DNA of 64,000 nucleotides from Natribaculum breve (lineage in GTDB: Archaea; Halobacteriota; Halobacteria; Halobacteriales; Natrialbaceae). A program made the position numbers and the translations under genes. Numbering within the stretch: position 1 is the stretch's first letter; each line of letters opens with the position of its first letter. The stretch covers positions 558,001-622,000 of the forward strand of contig NZ_CP095391.1 of NCBI RefSeq assembly GCF_023008585.1. The letters run 5' to 3'. Below, one piece after another: positions 5,496 to 32,248 of the stretch. The notes below the pieces were generated by a model. The model was not told the DNA's origin. It did no database searches and was given only the letters and a program-made list of their open reading frames with translations.

Positions 5496-6461
5496 ATGAA
5501 ACGCCTGACCCGCCGGAAAGCACACGAGAATCAAACGGAGCACGAAGCTGCTGACCAGGCGGGGGTTCGGACCTGCCCGGAATGCGATTCGAGTACGCTC
5601 ACGAGAAGCGCAGACGAGAGCGAAATTAGTTGCGAGGAGTGTGGGTTGATTCTCGAAGAGGAGACGATCGATCGAGGACCAGAATGGCGGGCGTTCAACG
5701 CGTCGGAGCGAGACAGCAAATCTCGCGTTGGTGCGCCAACGACCCAGACGATGCACGACAAGGGCTTGACGACCAGCATCGACTGGAAAAACCAGGACGC
5801 CTACGGACGGTCGCTCTCCTCGGAGAAGCGGAGTCAGATGAATCGGCTGCGAAAATGGCAAGAGCGTATTCGGACGAAGGACGCTGGCGAACGCAACCTC
5901 CAGTTTGCACTCTCCGAAACTGACCGGATGGCCTCTTCTCTGGGCGTTCCGCGATCCATTCGGGAGGTCGCCAGCGTCCTCTACCGACGCGCACTCGAGG
6001 AGGATCTCATCCGCGGACGCTCGATCGAGGGTGTCGCCACGAGTACGTTATACGCGGCCTGCCGGATGGAAGGGATTCCACGATCCCTGGACGAAGTTGC
6101 TGTCGTCTCACGTGTCGATCGGATGGAGATCGGTCGCACGTATCGGTATATCTCGAAGGAACTCGGTCTCGAGATGGAGCCCGTCGATCCGAAGAAATAC
6201 GTTCCGCGGTTCTGTTCTGAACTCGAGCTTTCCGAAGAAGTCCAGGTGAAAGCCAACGAAATCATCGATACCACAGCCGAAAAGGGGATGTTATCGGGAA
6301 AATCGCCGACCGGATATGCCGCCGCTGCAATCTATGCGAGTGCGCTCCTGTGTAACGAGAAAAAGACGCAAAACGAAGTCGCCACTGTCGCCCAGGTGAC
6401 CGAAGTCACCATTCGAAACCGATACCAAGAACAGCTCGGCGCAATGGGGCTTCCCAACTGA
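5496..6461 (+). CDS. tfb: Transcription initiation factor IIB (TFB)
   Basis: A 321-residue general transcription factor that bridges TBP and RNA polymerase and reads the BRE. It has an N-terminal zinc ribbon (CPEC at 27-30 and CEEC near 48-51), a B-finger/linker region (GPEWRAF, then RVGAPTTQTMHDKGLTT), and two cyclin-like repeats with the usual DEVAVVSRVDRMEIGRTYR and NEVATVAQVTEVTIRNRY helices. Haloarchaea carry several TFB paralogues with partly specialised promoters. This one sits in an accessory island next to mobile remnants, so it may be a dispensable paralogue. The start is the first ATG in a frame that stays intact to TGA. Confidence 0.97.
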   Translation: MKRLTRRKAHENQTEHEAADQAGVRTCPECDSSTLTRSADESEISCEECGLILEEETIDRGPEWRAFNASERDSKSRVGAPTTQTMHDKGLTTSIDWKNQDAYGRSLSSEKRSQMNRLRKWQERIRTKDAGERNLQFALSETDRMASSLGVPRSIREVASVLYRRALEEDLIRGRSIEGVATSTLYAACRMEGIPRSLDEVAVVSRVDRMEIGRTYRYISKELGLEMEPVDPKKYVPRFCSELELSEEVQVKANEIIDTTAEKGMLSGKSPTGYAAAAIYASALLCNEKKTQNEVATVAQVTEVTIRNRYQEQLGAMGLPN

Positions 6462-25669: not shown

Positions 25670-26781
25670 TGCAGTGTTGAACGCAAGACAGCGCCGTCAT
25701 AGAAATTTTGATATTCGCTTTTCCACCGGTAGCTCCGCTTTATCGGTAGGTTCTGAGATCGGACGATTCGATTTCAGCCGACTTGTGCAGTGATCAAAAC
25801 ATCAGTTTCACAAGATGCTGCACGAAGTGTGAGATGGACGATGGCGATGCCTCTCTCGAATACGTCCGGAGAAGAGGAGCAGGCGGCGAGCCTTAACTCG
25901 CCGCCTGCGCGAGGTTATGGACGATGCACTTCCGTGTGAGCTCCCGGAACTGGCCATGCCAGCTCCGGGAGCGGATCTCGTCGCCGTCGTCCTTCAGCAT
26001 CGCAAATACGGTCTCACTCATTGACCGTTGATTGTAGACTTCGTCGTCAATTCTGGCGTTGTGAGCCTTCTTGAGTGCGTTTTGCTCACAGTGTTTGATC
26101 ACTGGTCGCGTTGACGCTTCACGACAGGCCTCCCGGAGATTGCTCCATGAGTACATCTTGTCAGCCAGAAGTGCCTGCAGGTCTTCGGCGTTGCGCCGAA
26201 AGACCTGCAGCCCAATGTGGCCGTCGTAGGCTTTCTTTGTGGTGAAATGAGCGTCCATGATAGCAAGTGACTCCGTATCGACGAGCAGCGTTGTTTTCAT
26301 CGCATTGAACGAGTAGCCGACACGATTTCGGTAGTGCGAACTAGCCTGATCTCGCTGGAAGCCGCTGGCATCGATCGAGGCAGTTCCTGAGAGCCCCGCC
26401 TGCTCCGCTGACCGGCGGAGCAGGCGGCGCAACTCTTTCATCGGGAATTCTCCGTCCCACACGCTGAAAGACGTGTAATCAGGTGATTTCTCAAGGCCGA
26501 ACACAGCAAGGATTCCCGGCATCTCGTTCAGATAGTCCTCGAACTGCCGGAGCGGCTTGTTGACTTCCTCTTTGGGCAAGAGCAACGCGATCTTCGTGGA
26601 CTTGGCGTACCCGTCCGCGCCGTCCGGCGCGGCGGGTACGTCTGGTTCTTCTACGTGGGTCGTGGCGAACTCGTGAAACGTCTGTGCGAGGTTCCTGAGA
26701 CGTCCCATATCGCCAGACGGCGTCCAAATCCCCTGAAATCAGCGATACAATCCGCAGAGGGCGTCGGCGTTCAACAGAGCA
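25670..26781 (-). mobile_element. IS5-type insertion sequence, third type (1112 bp)
   Basis: Ends tgcagtgttgaacgc and gcgttcaacagagca, which resemble the right end of the 1131-bp element. The flanking octamers differ, so there is no target duplication; the toxin gene on the right is cut at the element's edge, which suggests deletion after insertion. Confidence 0.85.
25893..26708 (-). CDS. IS5-family transposase (third type)
   Basis: 271 residues related to the 13240-14055 enzyme. It shares ASIDASGF, LLVDTESLAIMDAHFTTK and the SETVFAMLKDDGDEIRSRSW region that carries the catalytic acids. Full-length and in frame. Confidence 0.92.
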   Translation of the reverse strand: MGRLRNLAQTFHEFATTHVEEPDVPAAPDGADGYAKSTKIALLLPKEEVNKPLRQFEDYLNEMPGILAVFGLEKSPDYTSFSVWDGEFPMKELRRLLRRSAEQAGLSGTASIDASGFQRDQASSHYRNRVGYSFNAMKTTLLVDTESLAIMDAHFTTKKAYDGHIGLQVFRRNAEDLQALLADKMYSWSNLREACREASTRPVIKHCEQNALKKAHNARIDDEVYNQRSMSETVFAMLKDDGDEIRSRSWHGQFRELTRKCIVHNLAQAAS

Positions 26782-27112
26782 TGTTCTGTTCAATCTCTGT
26801 GCGTATTGACTTCTCTCCCGCATCTTCTCCATGCGGACGAGGAACACATGGAACTACAGCAAACGATTCGTTCTCGTCATTAGCGAACGGCTCAAGTGCC
26901 TTTTTGCTCCCGTGATGGATCCATTGCTCCCTCGTCCCTTCGGGCGCATACTCAGAGTTCTCTCGAACATGTCGTTCGAGTTCTTGGTAACAGACGTTCG
27001 TTGTCGTCAGGTTCAGCGTTTCCGTGAGACGAGACCAGAGATTGGTGTTTGCGACAGCGATCAGTGCGTCAGTATCGACGATAATCGGATAGCGTACTCC
27101 ATTGTCCGCCAT
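26782..27112 (-). pseudogene. PIN-domain toxin, 3'-truncated by the IS5 element
   Basis: Opens MADNGVRYPIIVDTDALIAVAN, with the first PIN acid in VDTDAL, then ELERHV, and breaks off after GEDAGEKSIRTEIEQ, where the second acidic cluster lies. The frame enters the IS end and stops. PIN toxins are usually 20-60 residues longer, so the last acidic site and helix are lost and nuclease activity is doubtful. Starts 2 bases after the antitoxin. Confidence 0.8.
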
Positions 27113-27114
27113 CG

Positions 27115-27423
27115 CTATTCTTGGAATACCCCAGTCGTATCAAGTTCTGAAGCTTCCTCAAAGGCATTCCGCTCGCGCTCAATCTCCTCTAAGCCATCAT
27201 CGAGAAGAATCTCTGCAACATCTTTAGAGATATCTCCCTGCTTGTACCGCTGGTGAAGAGTGATTTTCTCTTCGTCCGAAAGGGCTTCTCGAAGTTTCTC
27301 TCGGAGCCCCTGTCGAGCAAGCTCACTAATGTTTATTCCCCCGAGACGCATCTGGTCAACGACCTGCGTTGCTTCCTTCTCAGCTTCACCCCGGAACTGG
27401 ATTTTGTCGTTGTTCGTCGCCAT
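27115..27423 (-). CDS. Probable antitoxin paired with the PIN toxin
   Basis: 102 residues. The N-terminal part (IQFRGEAEKEATQVVDQMRLGG, then INISELARQGL) is compatible with a short DNA-binding fold, followed by an acidic helical tail (EEKITLHQRYKQGDISKDVAEILLDDGLEEIERE) suited to wrap a toxin. The order antitoxin then toxin with 2-base spacing is typical of type II pairs. With the toxin cut, this may be an orphan antitoxin. Confidence 0.75.
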   Translation of the reverse strand: MATNNDKIQFRGEAEKEATQVVDQMRLGGINISELARQGLREKLREALSDEEKITLHQRYKQGDISKDVAEILLDDGLEEIERERNAFEEASELDTTGVFQE

Positions 27424-27591
27424 CTTATCTACTCGTTCGTTCCCTACAGCAATAGATGTTGTGACGCGCCATCCATGTCATCACAGATCACCACTAGACT
27501 ACAACTTGAGAAAAGAGATTCGTTGTTTCAATGATCGGACCGCGAACTACACTCGCCAAAACAGTGCCTATGATTACCACACCCTGACTAA

Positions 27592-27599
27592 TTTTAATA
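27592..27599 (+). promoter_or_regulatory. TATA-like box upstream of the tRNA array
   Basis: ttttaata in an AT-rich patch is the only clear archaeal TATA-like element between the antitoxin and the first tRNA. It predicts transcription from about 27622-27626 into the array. Confidence 0.45.
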
Positions 27600-28077
27600 C
27601 AGTTGCCACGATAATCCGTAACTGACGTCCGAAACAAACCTCGTAAACGGAAAATTCCGCAACATGGTCGATACTCGCTTCAAACCGCGGCGTGCTCGTT
27701 CTCGCTTAGCCGCGGGTCGCGTGTTCGGCGAGTATCTACAAGACCAGCGTGCGAAGAGTTCGGCCGAGAATCGCTGGGCTTGCGTCGCCATCGAACGCGA
27801 AAGTGCGACGCACTCCGGCGATCTCCGGACACTCTCACCCGCATAACCCGGCTCCCACGCGGACTACCCGTCAGGGGCTGGGGAACACGGGAGTGCCGCC
27901 TGCTTTCGTCTAGTACTCGCTTAGCTCACAGCGTCACGCGAGTACGGCGACTGAGGCTCGCGGCAGTTTGGTCTGCGTTCGTTCCTGACGGTGGGACGAA
28001 CGAGCGATTCCGTATGCGCTGAGCGTACGAAGAGTCGCTAGCACACATCCCCCGCAGCGAGAGCTGCGGCTACGTCG
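27600..28077 (+). other. Structured leader of the tRNA array
   Basis: No tRNA recognised. Stable inverted repeats include gtactcgc/gcgagtac (27913-27938), gttcgttcc/gggacgaac (about 27978-28002), gtatgc-gctga-gcgtac (28012-28028) and ccgcagc-gaga-gctgcgg (28052-28069) just before the first tRNA. A 60-codon frame at 27664-27846 is strongly basic, unlike haloarchaeal proteins, and is not called. Confidence 0.45.
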
Positions 28078-28153
28078 AGCCCCGGAGTCTCCGCTGGCGA
28101 GGGACGCCGGACTTTGAATCCGGAGGCCGCCGGTTCGATTCCGGCCGGGGCGA
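28078..28153 (+). tRNA. tRNA-Gln(UUG)
   Basis: Acceptor agccccg/cggggcg (first pair A-G mismatched), D arm gtct...ggac, anticodon stem ccgga/tccgg with loop ctttgaa, T arm gccgg-ttcgatt-ccggc, discriminator a. The D arm is identical in layout to tRNA-Glu(UUC) at 29914, which suggests common descent. Confidence 0.85.
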
Positions 28154-28156
28154 CAT

Positions 28157-28230
28157 GCCGACGTGGTGTAATCCGGCGAGCATACGGTCCTGTCACGGCC
28201 GTGATCCGGGTTCGAATCCCGGCGTCGGCG
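28157..28230 (+). tRNA. tRNA-Asp(GUC)
   Basis: Acceptor gccgacg/cgtcggc with G73 as expected for Asp. Anticodon stem cggtc/ggccg, loop ctgtcac; T arm ccggg-ttcgaat-cccgg. It starts 3 bases after tRNA-Gln. Confidence 0.92.
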
Positions 28231-28482
28231 TGGACGCGTGGACAAACCACGTGGGGATACCCATCGAGGTAGGCAGCCCGTTAATGCGATCATCTGGATC
28301 GTTCCCACGATGCTGGGCCCAGCAGGGTCTGCAACCTACATGAGCCGGTGTGGTATTCCCGGGAGCACCCGAAGTACGCCCCCGCGATGAGACGCGCAAT
28401 CACAACTACCCGTTCGTGGTTGCGCAGTTGGAAACAGTCGTACAGATAGATAATCAACTGCCGAATGCTCGGCAGTACCCGT
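28231..28482 (+). other. Structured spacer between tRNA-Asp and tRNA-Pro
   Basis: No complete tRNA is found. Hairpins visible: cgtgg-acaaa-ccacg (about 28237-28251), a gcgcaa...ttgcgc pair (about 28394-28425) and actgccga-atgc-tcggcagt (28457-28476), the last 6 bases before tRNA-Pro. Confidence 0.45.
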
Positions 28483-28555
28483 GAGCCGATAGTCCAGTGG
28501 ACGACGATCTGTGCCTTGGACGCACACGACCGAGGTTCGAATCCTCGTCGGCTCA
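28483..28555 (+). tRNA. tRNA-Pro(UGG)
   Basis: Acceptor gagccga/tcggctc with A73. Anticodon stem tgtgc/gcaca and loop cttggac; T arm cgagg-ttcgaat-cctcg. The D stem has only three good pairs. Confidence 0.9.
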
Positions 28556-28559
28556 GTGT

Positions 28560-28642
28560 GCCGTGTCTGGGGAATGGTGACCCCACTGGCCTGCTACGCC
28601 AGCCCCGACGACGGGTTCTCGGTTCAACTCCGGGACACGGCG
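28560..28642 (+). tRNA. tRNA-Ser(GCU)
   Basis: Acceptor gccgtgt/acacggc with G73. Anticodon stem ctggc/gccag and loop ctgctac; long variable arm cccg-acga-cggg; T arm ctcgg-ttcaact-ccggg. Confidence 0.92.
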
Positions 28643-28644
28643 TG

Positions 28645-28785
28645 ATGCCAAAGAATGTCTACCCTGACTGCAACGAGGAAGCGTTCCGCCACGTCTCACT
28701 CGGTGAAACAACGTCCATCGACACGATTGGAAGCGTGAGAATCTGCGTCACCGACGAAGGCACGTACTTCCACGGAACGAGGTGA
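28645..28785 (+). CDS. 46-residue ORF inside the tRNA array
   Basis: Begins 2 bases after tRNA-Ser: MPKNVYPDCNEEAFRHVSL...RICVTDEGTYFHGTR. It is acidic in the N-terminal half, and short ORFs between tRNAs are common in viral tRNA clusters. No family recognised. Confidence 0.4.
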   Translation: MPKNVYPDCNEEAFRHVSLGETTSIDTIGSVRICVTDEGTYFHGTR

Positions 28786-28800
28786 CCGCCATTCGCCCCT

Positions 28801-28873
28801 GCCGTGACCGGGTGCTGGTGAACCCACTCGCCCCGAAAGCGAGGGGCAGAAGCTGAGCAATACGCAGCTTCCG
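28801..28873 (+). pseudogene. Degenerate tRNA-Ser(CGA)-like sequence
   Basis: Starts gccgtga, like tRNA-Ser(GCU), and has a D arm gggt-gctggtga-accc, an anticodon-like hairpin ctcgc-cccgaaa-gcgag (CGA, but C at position 33) and a long variable-arm hairpin gaagctg/cagcttc. The T arm and 3' acceptor strand are missing, so it is not a normal tRNA. It may be a decayed gene or a tRNA-derived RNA. Confidence 0.45.
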
Positions 28874-28927
28874 ACATCCCGTGAGTAGCGCGAAGGGGGC
28901 TCGTCGGAGCTTGCTCCGACGGCGTGT

Positions 28928-29009
28928 GGTGAGACAAGCAGATTGGTGACTGCGCTCGGTTTGAAACCGAGAGCTGCGAGGCTTCGGAGTTCGACTCTCC
29001 GTCTCACTG
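28928..29009 (+). tRNA. tRNA-Ser(UGA)
   Basis: Acceptor ggtgaga/tctcact (G-U first pair), G73. Anticodon stem ctcgg/ccgag, loop tttgaaa, short variable arm agc/gct, T arm cggag-ttcgact-ctccg. A perfect hairpin cgtcggag-cttg-ctccgacg ends 6 bases upstream. Confidence 0.88.
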
Positions 29010-29011
29010 TT

Positions 29012-29097
29012 GGCGGGATTTCCCTAGCCCGGCCAAGGGACCGCATTGGAAGCGCGGCGTCCGCGAGGGCACGAGTGTTCAAATCACTCTCCCGCCG
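29012..29097 (+). tRNA. tRNA-Ser(GGA)
   Basis: Acceptor ggcggga/tcccgcc with G73. Anticodon loop ttggaag on a stem with one A-C mismatch; long variable arm; T arm gagtg-ttcaaat-cactc. Third serine isoacceptor in a row. Confidence 0.85.
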
Positions 29098-29144
29098 CTG
29101 CGTGCCGAAGTGATTCGCAGAGTCGTTAGCGATTCTCGAATTGT

Positions 29145-29226
29145 GCCGCCATGCCAGAGTGGTCAAACGGACACGGTCGAGGACTGTGTGGTTAGTCCTT
29201 CCCAAGTTCGAATCCTGGTGGCGGCA
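29145..29226 (+). tRNA. tRNA-Leu(GAG) with C33
   Basis: Acceptor gccgcca/tggcggc, A73. Anticodon stem cacgg/ctgtg; loop tcgagga has C instead of the near-universal U at position 33. Variable arm gg-ttagt-cc; T stem has one A-C mismatch. Function is therefore uncertain. Confidence 0.8.
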
Positions 29227-29266
29227 TACCGGTCACTGTACCAGTAGACGATTCCCTGTATTCTCT

Positions 29267-29349
29267 GTCGCCGTACCCAAGTGGTCAACGGGAAGCGGCT
29301 CAGAACCGCTGGCGTAGGTCCTTCCGAGGTTCGAATCCTCGCGGCGACA
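29267..29349 (+). tRNA. tRNA-Leu(CAG)
   Basis: Acceptor gtcgccg/cggcgac, A73. Anticodon stem agcgg/ccgct, loop ctcagaa, long variable arm, T arm cgagg-ttcgaat-cctcg. All stems paired. Confidence 0.92.
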
Positions 29350-29352
29350 TTT

Positions 29353-29424
29353 CTCTCCGTGGTCAAGTGGTCACGACGCCTCCCTGTAGAGGAGGAGACG
29401 CACGTTCGAGTCGTGCCGGGGAGA
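29353..29424 (+). tRNA. tRNA-Tyr(GUA)
   Basis: Acceptor ctctccg/cggggag gives the C1-G72 pair that archaeal TyrRS reads; A73. Anticodon stem cctcc/ggagg, loop ctgtaga; T arm gcacg-ttcgagt-cgtgc. Confidence 0.92.
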
Positions 29425-29428
29425 CTGC

Positions 29429-29553
29429 GGGACGGTGGAAGAGCCTGGCATTCACGCTCTCACCGAGTTTTCACCGGAGAACCGGTGCGACGGTGAGGGC
29501 TCCTTCATCTCACTTGTAACGAGAACACGCAGGTTCGAATCCTGCCCGTCCCA
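29429..29553 (+). tRNA. tRNA-Th(r)(UGU) with a ~49-nt insertion in the D arm
   Basis: tRNA-Thr. Acceptor gggacgg/ccgtccc, A73; D stem gaag/cttc; anticodon loop cttgtaa (29513-29519); T arm gcagg-ttcgaat-cctgc. Between the D-loop bases and the 3' D strand lie about 49 extra bases (29454-29502). They fold into a 10-bp helix (29456-29465 with 29491-29500) topped by caccgg-agaa-ccggtg. Whether it is a spliced intron or a permanent extension is not known. Confidence 0.82.
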
Positions 29554-29587
29554 CTGGCCGATGACCCTTTCCAGGAGAGGCCAACCC

Positions 29588-29660
29588 GCTCCAGTGGAGT
29601 AGCGGCCAAACTCACGGCCCTCTCACGGCCGAGCCCCCGGTTCGAATCCGGGTTGGAGCT
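29588..29660 (+). tRNA. tRNA-Glu(CUC)
   Basis: Acceptor gctccag/ttggagc; D stem gagt/actc; anticodon stem cggcc/ggccg, loop ctctcac; T arm cccgg-ttcgaat-ccggg. Confidence 0.92.
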
Positions 29661-29662
29661 GC

Positions 29663-29735
29663 GGGCCCGGAGCCTATGAGGACAGGCGAGCGGCTTTTAA
29701 CCGCAGGATAGCGGGTTCGAATCCCGTCGGGCCCT
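29663..29735 (+). tRNA. tRNA-Lys(UUU)
   Basis: Acceptor gggcccg/cgggccc; D stem gcct/aggc; anticodon loop cttttaa on a gcgg/ccgc core; T arm gcggg-ttcgaat-cccgt. Its last 13 bases, cccgtcgggccct, recur at 29800-29812. Confidence 0.9.
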
Positions 29736-29817
29736 TCGGAATCGCCAAGCGATTCCTCGTCACCGACGTAGATCGCAAACACTCCGTGTTTGCTCACTCC
29801 CGTCGGGCCCTCTCGAT
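29736..29817 (+). other. Spacer with two perfect hairpins and a repeated tRNA 3' end
   Basis: ggaatcgc-caa-gcgattcc (29738-29756) and gcaaacac-tcc-gtgtttgc (29775-29793) are both perfect 8-bp stems with 3-base loops. They are followed by a copy of the 3' end of tRNA-Lys. Confidence 0.6.
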
Positions 29818-29892
29818 GCCTGGGAGACCCCCCCTGGTGGGGGTGCCGGGCTGTTACGCCGGTCGCGGGAGGTTCGAGTCCTTCCTCAGGCG
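29818..29892 (+). tRNA. tRNA-Asn(GUU)
   Basis: Acceptor gcctggg/ctcaggc, G73 as usual for Asn. Anticodon loop ctgttac on ccggg/gccgg (one mismatch); T arm ggagg-ttcgagt-ccttc. GC-rich D arm. Confidence 0.87.
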
Positions 29893-29913
29893 CTCGGAAC
29901 CAATTGCAGTGAT

Positions 29914-29989
29914 GCTCCCGGAGTCTCCGTTGGCGAGGGACGCCAGCCTTTCAAGCTGGAGGTCGGGGGTTCGATTCCCCTCGGGAGCA
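29914..29989 (+). tRNA. tRNA-Glu(UUC)
   Basis: Acceptor gctcccg/cgggagc, A73; D arm gtct...ggac; anticodon stem ccagc/gctgg, loop ctttcaa; T arm ggggg-ttcgatt-cccct. Close relative of tRNA-Gln(UUG) at 28078. Confidence 0.92.
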
Positions 29990-30002
29990 CTCGGGGCTGC
30001 AG

Positions 30003-30058
30003 TGGCAAGCGCTTTCCGTACCCTCCCAGCGGGGTACAACGGATTGGAACGCTGCCAC
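30003..30058 (+). ncRNA. Long bulged hairpin RNA, Y-RNA candidate
   Basis: The 5' strand gtggc-a-agcg-ct-ttcc pairs with the 3' strand ggaa-cgct-gccac: 13 pairs with unpaired A and CU only on the 5' side. The apical part carries a 6-bp hairpin gtaccc/gggtac. Bulges confined to the 5' strand of the closing stem are also a feature of Y RNAs, the ligands of Ro60, whose gene lies 540 bp downstream. No sequence match to known Y RNAs is claimed. Confidence 0.35.
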
Positions 30059-30166
30059 CGTCAGTTCCCCCAGCGTGTGGTCGTCCAGGTGGTGCGTTCC
30101 TTCAGCCCGCAAGGCACCCACCGGGAGTCATAGCCCGTCGCGCCGCCGGTTTCCCGACCGCACGTG

Positions 30167-30229
30167 GCGACCGTCGAGTCGGAGCGTTGCTTCGCCAGGA
30201 ACTCGCAGGTTCAAATCCTGCCGGTGGCT
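30167..30229 (+). ncRNA. tRNA-like RNA without anticodon arm (1)
   Basis: Acceptor-like gcgaccg/cggtggc (6 of 7 pairs), a D-like arm gagt...actc with a 21-base loop, then directly a perfect T arm gcagg-ttcaaat-cctgc. No anticodon arm fits. This acceptor, D-like and T-arm order matches the tRNA-like module of bacterial YrlA Y RNAs. Alternative: gccaccg at 30054-30060 pairs perfectly with cggtggc and would close a 176-nt RNA. Confidence 0.5.
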
Positions 30230-30256
30230 CAGTCCATCGAGAACATCCCGGACAAA

Positions 30257-30276
30257 GAGAGTCCGAGGGGACTCTC
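30257..30276 (+). other. Perfect hairpin between RNA units
   Basis: gagagtcc-gagg-ggactctc, an 8-bp stem with a 4-base loop, between the two anticodon-less tRNA-like units. Confidence 0.6.
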
Positions 30277-30331
30277 GACACCGGCCCCGCTCCGACAGGT
30301 TTCCGGTCGCCGTATTGCCAGTGGTCGTCGA

Positions 30332-30387
30332 CCTGGAGCGATCCTTCGATGGCACTCTTCGGGTTCGAATCCCGCTTTCGCTCCAGG
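30332..30387 (+). ncRNA. tRNA-like RNA without anticodon arm (2)
   Basis: A 10-bp closing stem cctggagcga/tcgctccagg encloses a short 17-base segment and a T arm (cggg-ttcgaat-cccg). There is no room for D and anticodon arms. It resembles an acceptor/T-arm minihelix. Confidence 0.5.
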
Positions 30388-30405
30388 AATTTCCCGGCCA
30401 CTCTC

Positions 30406-30480
30406 GTTCCCGCAGCTCAGTCAGGACAGAGCACCGGCCTTCGAAGCCGGGTGTCGCACGTTCGAATCGTGCCGGGAACG
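30406..30480 (+). tRNA. tRNA-Arg(UCG)
   Basis: Acceptor gttcccg/cgggaac, G73; D stem gctc/gagc; anticodon stem ccggc/gccgg, loop cttcgaa; T arm gcacg-ttcgaat-cgtgc. All stems are perfect. Last canonical tRNA of the array. Confidence 0.95.
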
Positions 30481-30595
30481 TCCAGCCGAGCGAAGCGAGG
30501 CTGGGCTCGGGGGAGTTTCTTTCCCGATGCTCGCTGCTCGCAGACGCTGTGGGCAGCCGCGGTCGGAGTCGCCTGTTGCGGCTCCGGGTGATAGT
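30481..30595 (+). promoter_or_regulatory. Structured leader between tRNA-Arg and the Ro60 gene
   Basis: Hairpins ccagcc/ggctgg (30482-30504) and ggagtcgc-ctgtt-gcggctcc (30565-30585), the latter ending 10 bases before the ATG. No TATA box is visible, so the gene probably relies on read-through from the array. The hairpins could release tRNA-Arg or control translation. Confidence 0.5.
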
Positions 30596-32125
30596 ATGGA
30601 ATTCAACAGGCCGAAGCAAACGGTCGCGGAGGCGACGCGAACCACCAACTACGAAGGTGGCGAAGCGTTCGAGCCTGCCGACCCTCGACTCGCACTGTAC
30701 AAGCGGACGATCAACCAGCTGCTGGAAGGGTCGTTCTACGAATCTGATGACGAGCAGTTGGCCGCCGTCGTCCACCGGTTCGATGCCGCCGCAGACGAGG
30801 ACCCGGAGTTCGTCCTGAAGCTCGCCGCGTACGCGCGCCAGGAGCTCTATTTGCGGGACATCCCGCAAGTGCTGCTCGTGCTGGCAGCCAACGACGACCG
30901 GTTCAAAGACGACTCTCCCGAGTCGCTCATCCGCGAGTGGACGCCGGCGATCGTCCAGCGAATGGACGAGACGGCAACCGCCCTCGCTATCCACGATCAG
31001 CTGTTCGGTGGCACCGCACCGTGGCCGCTTCGGCGGGGAATCGAAGACGCGCTCGTTGAGATGGCTGACGCCTACACGCTCGGCAAGTACGAGCTGTCGC
31101 GCCGTGAGGTGACCCTTCACGACGTGTTCAACCGCGTCCACCCTGCACCCGTCGACGCCGAGCAGGAAGCGCTGTTCGAGCGGTTCATGCGCGGCGACCT
31201 CGACGACTACCCCGACATTGAACCGTTGCCGTCGCCCAACACGTGGGAGACGGTCATCTCCGAGCGCGGCAACACACAGGAGTCGTGGGAACTGCTCATC
31301 GAGGACGACGCGTACACGCTGCCGATCTTCGCGTCGATCCGGAACCTCCGGAACATGCTCGAGGCCGGCGTTCCGGAGGATACCGTCGTGAACCACCTGG
31401 ACCTGGAGGCGGTGCGTCACGCGCCGCTGTACCCATTCCGGTACTACCAGGCGTACACCGCGCTTCAAGACGCAGATGTGCAGGCACCGGCGGTTGAGCA
31501 GTGGCTAGAAGACGCAATTGATGTCGCAGTCGAGACGGTTCCCGACGGACTCGGCGACACCTTCGTCGCAGTCGACCTGTCGGGATCGATGGAGCATCCG
31601 CTCTCTGCGAACAGCACGCTCCGGTTAAAGGAAATCGGCGCGTTGTTCGGTGCGATCCTGGCTGATCAGGGTGCCGACGTCGGCGGGTTCGGCGACGATT
31701 TCCAGCCCGTTTCGATGCACGTCGACACGCCAGTACTGCAGCGCCAAGAAGCGGTGCTGGCCATCGACGAGGACGTCGGGAACTCGACGAACGGCTGGAA
31801 GGCGATCGAACACCTTCACGATCGAGGCAGATCTCTCGAGCGGATCGTCGTCTTTACAGATATGCAGATCTGGGACAGCACGCCGTTCACGGCACGCGAT
31901 AACCAGACGGTCAAGGACGCGTTCGAGGCCTATCGTGACGAGGTGTCCGCGGACACCGCGTTGTACCTCGTCGATCTCGCGGCCTACGGCGATCTGGTGA
32001 CGCCGGACGGCTACGAAAACGTCTACAACATCTCCGGCTGGTCGGAGAACGTCCTCTCGTTCATCGAACACGCCGAGAATCCAAAGCAGGTCATCGACGA
32101 AATCAGGGCGTTCAAGCTATCTTAG
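30596..32125 (+). CDS. TROVE-domain RNA-binding protein (Ro60/Rsr family)
   Basis: 509 residues, close to the usual Ro60 size. The N-terminal TROVE HEAT-repeat ring is recognisable from TNYEGGEAFEPADPRLALYK through LLEGSFYES, ELYLRDIPQVLLVLAA and SIRNLRNM. The C-terminal von Willebrand A domain shows the MIDAS DLSGSM near residue 326 and VVFTDMQIWDS. Ro60 rings bind misfolded RNA ends in the central hole and Y RNAs on the outer surface. The start is the ATG 10 bases after a hairpin; longer upstream frames overlap tRNA genes and are rejected. The context (15 tRNAs plus anticodon-less tRNA mimics) points to tRNA or structured-RNA handling. TROVE genes are rare in archaea. Confidence 0.93.
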   Translation: MEFNRPKQTVAEATRTTNYEGGEAFEPADPRLALYKRTINQLLEGSFYESDDEQLAAVVHRFDAAADEDPEFVLKLAAYARQELYLRDIPQVLLVLAANDDRFKDDSPESLIREWTPAIVQRMDETATALAIHDQLFGGTAPWPLRRGIEDALVEMADAYTLGKYELSRREVTLHDVFNRVHPAPVDAEQEALFERFMRGDLDDYPDIEPLPSPNTWETVISERGNTQESWELLIEDDAYTLPIFASIRNLRNMLEAGVPEDTVVNHLDLEAVRHAPLYPFRYYQAYTALQDADVQAPAVEQWLEDAIDVAVETVPDGLGDTFVAVDLSGSMEHPLSANSTLRLKEIGALFGAILADQGADVGGFGDDFQPVSMHVDTPVLQRQEAVLAIDEDVGNSTNGWKAIEHLHDRGRSLERIVVFTDMQIWDSTPFTARDNQTVKDAFEAYRDEVSADTALYLVDLAAYGDLVTPDGYENVYNISGWSENVLSFIEHAENPKQVIDEIRAFKLS

Positions 32126-32248
32126 CTGGAACGAGGGCGCTACGCCGCCGTCCTCAGGGAGCGAGGTGAGGCCGATACGGATCTTCACTTTCACCTTCCG
32201 TGGCACGGACTTATAACCGAGAACGGCGAATCAGCAATCACGTCGAAA

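Follow-up and report, generated by a model that had tools for sequence, protein, structure and literature searches.

Why would an array of transfer RNA (tRNA) genes stand together with a gene for the TROVE-domain protein Ro60 in the haloarchaeon Natribaculum breve, and which RNAs does such a block encode? In animals and bacteria, the partner RNAs of Ro60 are the Y RNAs. The block, here termed the cassette, was analysed within a window of 64,000 nucleotides (nt), i.e., positions 558001-622000 of contig C2 (637 kb, one of four contigs in the genome); positions below are those of the window. The cassette displayed the order TATA box, leader RNA A, tRNAs, RNA B, tRNAs, three Y-like RNAs, tRNA-Arg, and Ro60/TROVE. 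This locus is probably a mobile archaeal Ro60 ribonucleoprotein operon with the Y-like RNAs at its core and the tRNAs as spares; the operon reading was built on the observed order, conservation, and covariation and on the Ro60 fold, and it presumes a single transcript. A preliminary description from the sequence alone had pictured the cassette as a tRNA array joined to a Ro60 gene: this unit stood, while the Y-like RNAs, RNA B, leader RNA A, and the presence of another cassette on the chromosome had been overlooked.

Three Y-like RNAs upstream of tRNA-Arg

The gap between tRNA-Glu and tRNA-Arg was conserved about as well as the tRNAs, and its apparently degenerate stretch 30075-30401 was composed of three tandem RNAs sharing one conserved two-part stem (bit scores from covariance model R1, see below):

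30077-30161, plus strand: Y-like unit 1, two-part stem with small head hairpins (41.2 bits, E 3.3e-7)
30167-30310, plus strand: Y-like unit 2, two-part stem with T arm, acceptor-like hairpin, and third arm (61.7 bits)
30321-30401, plus strand: Y-like unit 3, two-part stem whose head is reduced to the T arm (50.9 bits, E 1.3e-9)

The units shared the plan 6-bp helix, asymmetric loop (usually GUCGA versus ARUUUUCC), 9-bp helix, and variable head, the last often beginning with UUCCUUCGC. The long-form head displayed the order T arm, loop-closed acceptor stem, and D arm, i.e., a permuted tRNA opened at the anticodon stem, and RNAalifold recovered the long-form helices unprompted. The bacterial Y RNA YrlA has the plan of a circularly permuted tRNA head on a two-part stem. 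The tRNA-like head was complete in long unit 3, which was a full permuted tRNA in 22 of 49 loci (R1 at least 113 bits), and unit 2 had a different third arm; the loci were stretches of at most 15 kb around TROVE genes, plus the chromosomal stretch L005 of N. breve. The two-part stem with its internal loop would be the Ro60-binding part; since binding by Ro60 in the cell is a prediction, the units were labelled Y-like rather than Y RNAs.

Covariation was counted as consensus pairs changed on both sides: (i) 12 of 31 pairs in the long form (11 sequences), compared to a shuffled mean of 5.3 (reached by 0 of 500 shuffles) and 0-3 in slid controls, and (ii) 13 of 30 pairs in unit 2 (19 sequences), compared to a shuffled mean of 5.6 (0 of 500) and 1-3 in slid controls. 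The number of pair types in unit 2 was reached by 4 of 500 shuffles. The long-unit alignment A2 contained 11 of the 15 distinct long units; L041 and L062 were of unit-2 type and were moved to alignment A3, L061 was omitted for its long insert, and one odd L063 unit was also omitted. In one lineage, the unit-2 alignment put the acceptor-like hairpin in the wrong place (two of the hairpin pairs were unpaired in 9 of 19 sequences), and a motif scan with 98 units presupposed the pairing, its pair table being no independent evidence.

Co-occurrence of Y-like RNAs with Ro60

R1, built from 11 haloarchaeal long units, matched with at least 32.7 bits in 45 of the 49 loci, exactly three units being found in 35. 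A second model R2, which had the window copy of unit 2 among its training sequences, gave 30.3 and 28.9 bits in L067 and L080 (R1-negative genomes, TROVE about 50% identical), where folding yielded the same stem. Of 391 genomes of the class, 43 had TROVE, spread over 22 of 86 genera; Haloferax volcanii, a control genome, gave no TROVE match. An R1 search over the 391 genomes found units in 41; every one of these belonged to the 43 with TROVE, and none of the 348 TROVE-negative genomes gave a match. R1 was also run on 29 of 46 later-collected loci (most of the others being records already among L037-L081), and ARAGORN on 16 of these.

Among viral contigs, the near-twins L135 and L136 each had an R1 unit before TROVE (46.8 bits), and L139 had one after TROVE (45.8 bits). 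L139, which carried a bacterial transfer-messenger RNA, had several Y-like RNAs in a row directly after the Ro60 gene (L139:9911-10485), with three further partial matches to the Rfam family YrlA in the same stretch, below cut-off. At L135:7598-7740 (and at the same positions in L136), ARAGORN called a tRNA-Pyl at the start of the Y-like unit that precedes TROVE, which calls for care in tRNA annotation. An archaeon outside Halobacteria had a unit before TROVE (L193:1205-1322; R1 33.5 bits, stem by folding, partial sub-threshold Rfam YrlA match), and the other four of five TROVE genomes outside Halobacteria gave R1 scores of 15.9-22 bits. YrlA (RF02553) aligned the L005 unit end to end (31.7 bits, E 5.5e-5), below its curated cut-off of 69.

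Two loci had no tRNA called near TROVE: L128 contained two Y-like units (5585-5860) plus TROVE, and L129 (identical to L081) contained one (5888-5968) plus TROVE, its only tRNA being located beside rRNA genes about 3 kb downstream. To judge from these sequences, L128 and L129 are possible minimal forms of the cassette, in which Y-like RNA and Ro60 are retained and array tRNAs are absent.

Several observations weigh against the reading as a Ro60 operon with Y-like RNAs: (i) R1 had been trained on 11 of the loci that it matched, and the filters of the genome search were strict; (ii) R1 also gave scores to tandem tRNA junctions (32.6 bits at most, in L064), and the match in L068 (32.7 bits) is therefore identified by its fold alone; (iii) the number of pair types in the long form was reached by 35 of 500 shuffles, i.e., not beyond the shuffled range; (iv) unit 1 was without a tRNA-like head in most loci; (v) R2 found none of the units in L135, L136, and L139, and neither R1 nor R2 found a unit in viral contigs L137 and L138; (vi) no unit was found near TROVE in L053, whose TROVE is truncated, or near TROVE in halovirus HGTV-1, where the matches (20-26 bits) were partial, tRNA-like, and distant from TROVE; and (vii) all YrlA matches stayed under the gathering cut-off of 69 bits (31.7 in L005, 28.6 in L038, 33.0, and 35.8 in L139), no YrlA match was reported in the window, and L055, which carries a long unit, was without one.

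The stretch before tRNA-Arg might instead be a graveyard of decaying tRNA genes, with the tRNAs and Ro60 alone being of importance. ARAGORN and Rfam found nothing regular there in the window, window units 1 and 3 are reduced, and tRNA pseudogenes were counted in almost all published clusters (PMC6333295). Decay is nevertheless very improbable given the covariation unmatched in 500 shuffles, the three units in 35 of 49 loci, conservation like that of the tRNAs, and relatives of the units adjoining Ro60 in viral contigs.

The Ro60/TROVE protein

The gene at the 3' end of the cassette was identified by Pfam, alignment, and predicted fold:

30596-32125, plus strand: Ro60/TROVE gene, 509 amino acids, with vWA domain

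The TROVE domain (PF05731) matched with 77.3 bits (E 1.8e-21; cut-off 23), in agreement with the TROVE-domain protein proposed at this place in the preliminary description. The Pfam vWA_Ro60 match had 27.4 bits, 0.3 under the cut-off of 27.7, and the DxSxS metal site of the vWA domain (D327, S329, and S331) did not vary in either of two protein alignments (20 and 23 sequences). A structure model from the alignment of the window protein and its relatives had a mean predicted local distance difference test score (pLDDT) of 81.5, compared to 37.9 for the single-sequence model. The predicted fold resembled 9kop ('Trove domain' crystal structure; Z 30.3), Ro60 of Thermus phage phiLo (Z 27.1), and Rsr of Deinococcus radiodurans and human Ro60 (Z 23.0 each), the Rsr match spanning residues 29-496. 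The gene product is thus predicted to be a Ro60-fold protein with a C-terminal vWA domain. The closest named plasmid records to the window TROVE gene were from Natribaculum (99.2% and 97.8%), and 10 haloarchaeal plasmid records were among its best matches.

The tRNA array

Fourteen tRNAs, all on the plus strand, were called by ARAGORN in 28078-30484, and a fifteenth, Thr-like and missed by ARAGORN, was found with Rfam:

28078-28154, plus strand: tRNA-Gln(ttg)
28156-28231, plus strand: tRNA-Asp(gtc)
28482-28556, plus strand: tRNA-Pro(tgg)
28559-28643, plus strand: tRNA-Ser(gct)
28928-29009, plus strand: tRNA-Ser(tga)
29012-29098, plus strand: tRNA-Ser(gga), ARAGORN call alone
29144-29227, plus strand: tRNA-Leu(gag)
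29266-29350, plus strand: tRNA-Leu(cag)
29353-29425, plus strand: tRNA-Tyr(gta)
29487-29553, plus strand: tRNA-like (Thr), irregular, Rfam tRNA 34.8 bits
29588-29660, plus strand: tRNA-Glu(ctc)
29663-29735, plus strand: tRNA-Lys(ttt)
29818-29893, plus strand: tRNA-Asn(gtt), best Rfam score as tRNA-Sec, under the tRNA-Sec cut-off
29914-29990, plus strand: tRNA-Glu(ttc)
30405-30484, plus strand: tRNA-Arg(tcg)

All fifteen tRNAs that the preliminary description had placed on one strand were thereby recovered; covariance models supported nine at the Rfam gathering cut-off in a whole-window search and more in a smaller search. With 14 tRNAs in 2.4 kb, the array is by number and density a tRNA gene cluster as defined in PMC6333295 (at least 10 tRNAs, at least two per kb).

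The N. breve chromosome harbored 48 tRNAs outside arrays, which included all 14 anticodons of the window array. The best same-anticodon identity between array and host tRNAs was 60-76%, and the median Rfam tRNA score was 48.7 for array tRNAs (n = 25) versus 61.3 for the other tRNAs (n = 48). Because each of the 14 anticodons is already on the chromosome, the array tRNAs appear to be spares, as had been proposed, and the sequence comparison indicates a separate ancestry rather than recent copying from the host.

The cassette might also act in counter-defence against tRNA-cleaving enzymes, with array tRNAs replacing cleaved ones, Y-like heads as uncleavable decoys, and Ro60 clearing the fragments. 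This would suit redundant tRNAs strongly diverged from host copies, heads without an anticodon arm, the plasmid locations together with TROVE in viruses, and the decoy role proposed for YrlA (PMC7790460); it fits poorly with the two loci retaining Y-like RNA and Ro60 without array tRNAs, and we consider it possible, on the doubtful side.

Promoter, leader RNA A, RNA B, and small open reading frames

The head of the cassette and the remaining spaces between tRNAs contained the following features:

27569-27581, plus strand: conserved element directly upstream of the TATA box; many relatives have a TGTG-N5-CACA-like inverted repeat here, of which the window has an imperfect version
27592-27599, plus strand: TATA box TTTTAATA, recognized by sequence, position conserved among relatives
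27620-28077, plus strand: leader RNA A, start placed from the TATA box, covarying helices at about 27685-28036
28232-28481, plus strand: RNA B, structured RNA between tRNA-Asp and tRNA-Pro (fold z -3.46; covariation)
28645-28785, plus strand: sORF2, an open reading frame (ORF) of 46 amino acids, in part of the family only (19 loci)

A TTAATA[CT]A box was located 448-505 nt upstream of tRNA-Gln in 38 of the 39 tRNA-Gln-bearing loci among the 49 examined. No TATA-like word was present in the 160 nt upstream of TROVE in any of seven loci examined, in which the TROVE start codon was preceded by GGTGATAG or a close variant. The TATA box at the head and the lack of a visible promoter before TROVE, both noted earlier from the window alone, were thus seen in relatives as well, and transcription of array and Ro60 as a single transcript is plausible. 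An inverted repeat of at least 4 near the TATA box was found in 35 of 38 loci and not in the window copy; it is weak evidence, the shuffle control having covered only repeats of at least 5 (19% of shuffles).

Leader RNA A folded more stably than its shuffles (z -7.11), and 26 of its 66 consensus pairs were changed on both sides (shuffled mean 13.0, reached by 0 of 500 shuffles; slid controls 3-10). A leader frame at 27664-27846 was open in 38 of 38 loci, with indels preserving the frame. It was rejected as a small protein, and the leader was treated as RNA, because substitutions were evenly spread over codon positions (594:551:550 versus 2099:1150:7727 for TROVE in the same loci). In RNA B, two-sided changes were seen at 15 of 40 consensus pairs (11 sequences, count without shuffle control). 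Rfam gave no match to leader RNA A up to E 10 and none in the RNA B stretch; by their sequences, the two would be conserved structured RNAs without an Rfam family.

The codon-position substitutions of sORF2 were 181:193:471 (12 distinct copies), and a relative's copy had a weak DUF7385 match (17.5 bits versus a cut-off of 28). Many other loci harbored, downstream of TROVE, a tRNA-Gly and a codon-selected 97-amino-acid ORF, both missing from the window copy; this ORF (L005:6641-6934, minus strand, after tRNA-Gly) displayed codon-position substitutions of 1983:1207:3465 (14 distinct of 23 copies) and no Pfam match up to E 1. Left of the cassette, two adjacent small ORFs (26771-27423, minus strand) matched PIN (E 0.11) and CcdA (E 0.021) very weakly and are perhaps a toxin-antitoxin pair.

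Distribution, mobility, and mosaic structure

A second cassette was located on the N. breve chromosome (L005:6994-11081, minus strand), with 15 tRNAs including the tRNA-Gly missing in the window. The tRNA order was common across loci, tRNA number ranging from five or six in several loci to 31 in L061. Window 27540-32150 was the block aligning widely: leader and array aligned in about 20-43 other loci and TROVE in 48 of 48, whereas no more than two loci matched the flanks of the window copy. A sharp outer border was rejected as a general feature, being seen with the window copy only; with L005 as reference, 12-13 loci aligned on the left and up to 38 on the right.

L073 and L079, from genomes of different families, were 99.93% identical over 10.4 kb, and L005 had 97.2% identity to both over 8.25 kb. 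Such near-identical copies in different families argue that the cassette moves laterally, in keeping with the mobile island suspected earlier; from these alignments, array plus Ro60 appears as one conserved unit that moves between genomes and is headed by a conserved promoter. The window cassette was itself a mosaic: (i) the left part was 95.3% identical to the chromosomal cassette and (ii) the right part resembled other Natribaculum plasmids, sharing 99.0% identity with one of Natribaculum longum, compared to 83% with the chromosomal cassette, the switch lying between the Lys and second Glu genes (recombination border 29736-29915). The Lys-Asn gap was longer in the window than in the chromosomal cassette.

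Another explanation takes the cassette as a store of spare tRNAs serving translation of its carrier element, with Ro60 and the Y-like RNAs as passengers. The up to 31 tRNAs of L061, the 10 plasmid records, the 45% identical halovirus TROVE, and a halovirus with 36 tRNAs mentioned in PMC6333295 are in its favor, and the free loss of tRNAs while Ro60 and Y-like units persist is against it; we judge it unlikely.

Comparison with known systems

Morgado & Vicente (2019; PMC6333295) examined 2481 archaeal genomes and reported tRNA clusters in 29, of which 23 were halophiles; TROVE was part of 20 of the 29 clusters. These are the same kind of cluster as studied here, several of their contigs being among the present loci (for example, AOLX01000027.1 is L123 and FNPC01000012.1 is L105), and links to plasmids and a provirus were given. 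The array plus TROVE is therefore not new, and the earlier statement that no haloarchaeal version had been described was mistaken. The available portion of that paper reports tRNAs, pseudogenes, and TROVE, and no Y RNA, leader RNA, or RNA B; the Y-like RNAs and the two other structured RNAs are the new part.

Three further systems were compared. The bacterial rsr-yrlBA locus (RF02553) is alike in that Ro60 adjoins RNAs that carry a permuted-tRNA head on a two-part stem, as the end-to-end Rfam alignment also indicates; unlike it, the haloarchaeal units score under the Rfam cut-off, usually number three, are in several cases reduced, and lie within a tRNA operon. Halovirus HGTV-1 (KC292026) encodes a TROVE protein 44.7% identical to that of the window, but no array stood beside TROVE in the stretch examined and no full unit was found. 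In HGTV-1 (L082:6414-15050), TROVE was located near RtcB and a nucleotidyltransferase, which suggests an RNA-repair neighbourhood. Borg elements of Methanoperedens (PMC11208441) are likewise mobile elements of archaea, carrying 5-23 tRNAs together with a TROVE protein, and differ in being linked to methane oxidizers.

Proposed mechanism

As a Ro60 ribonucleoprotein operon, the cassette would be driven from leader RNA through Ro60 by its one conserved promoter. End-processing of tRNAs would excise them and so release the Y-like RNAs lying between tRNA-Glu and tRNA-Arg. By analogy with bacterial Rsr and Y RNA, the Y-like RNAs would load onto the Ro60 ring via the two-part stem, and the permuted-tRNA head, having no anticodon loop, would gate the ring or recruit a tRNA-binding partner or nuclease. 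In Deinococcus, Y RNA tethers Rsr to PNPase for structured-RNA decay and controls access to Rsr (PMC7790460 and PMC4726728). The archaeal nuclease partner could, as a guess, be the exosome. The particle would survey structured RNAs, chiefly damaged or misfolded tRNAs, and the redundant, strongly diverged array tRNAs would replace lost ones; a role in virus-host conflict or RNA damage is a guess as well.

A further proposal, tentative and rather unlikely in our estimate, is that Y RNAs arose from tandem tRNA arrays by grafting of a tRNA junction onto a Ro60-binding stem, and that the Y-like RNAs together with leader RNA A and RNA B form a transferable RNA-surveillance island protecting its carrier against tRNA loss. 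The junction origin was suggested because adjacent tRNAs read T arm, acceptor, acceptor, D arm, which is the permuted-tRNA order, and because such junctions score weakly with R1. Forms from full mimic through T-arm-only to plain hairpin stand side by side in the cassette.

Significance

The Y-like RNAs, leader RNA A, and RNA B were not found in Rfam 15 at cut-off or in the papers searched, and no description of an archaeal Y RNA was among the matches listed in the literature searches, which mostly excluded subscription papers. Leader RNA A and RNA B add two conserved RNAs lacking a family, and the Y-like RNAs could explain what some of the arrays' 'tRNA pseudogenes' do. With a conserved archaeal Y-like form, mostly as triplets in a tRNA operon by Ro60, the origin of the tRNA-like head becomes testable. 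The cassette is a non-pathogenic system for asking what Ro60 does on mobile elements, and the role and origin of its partner RNAs become testable in Archaea.

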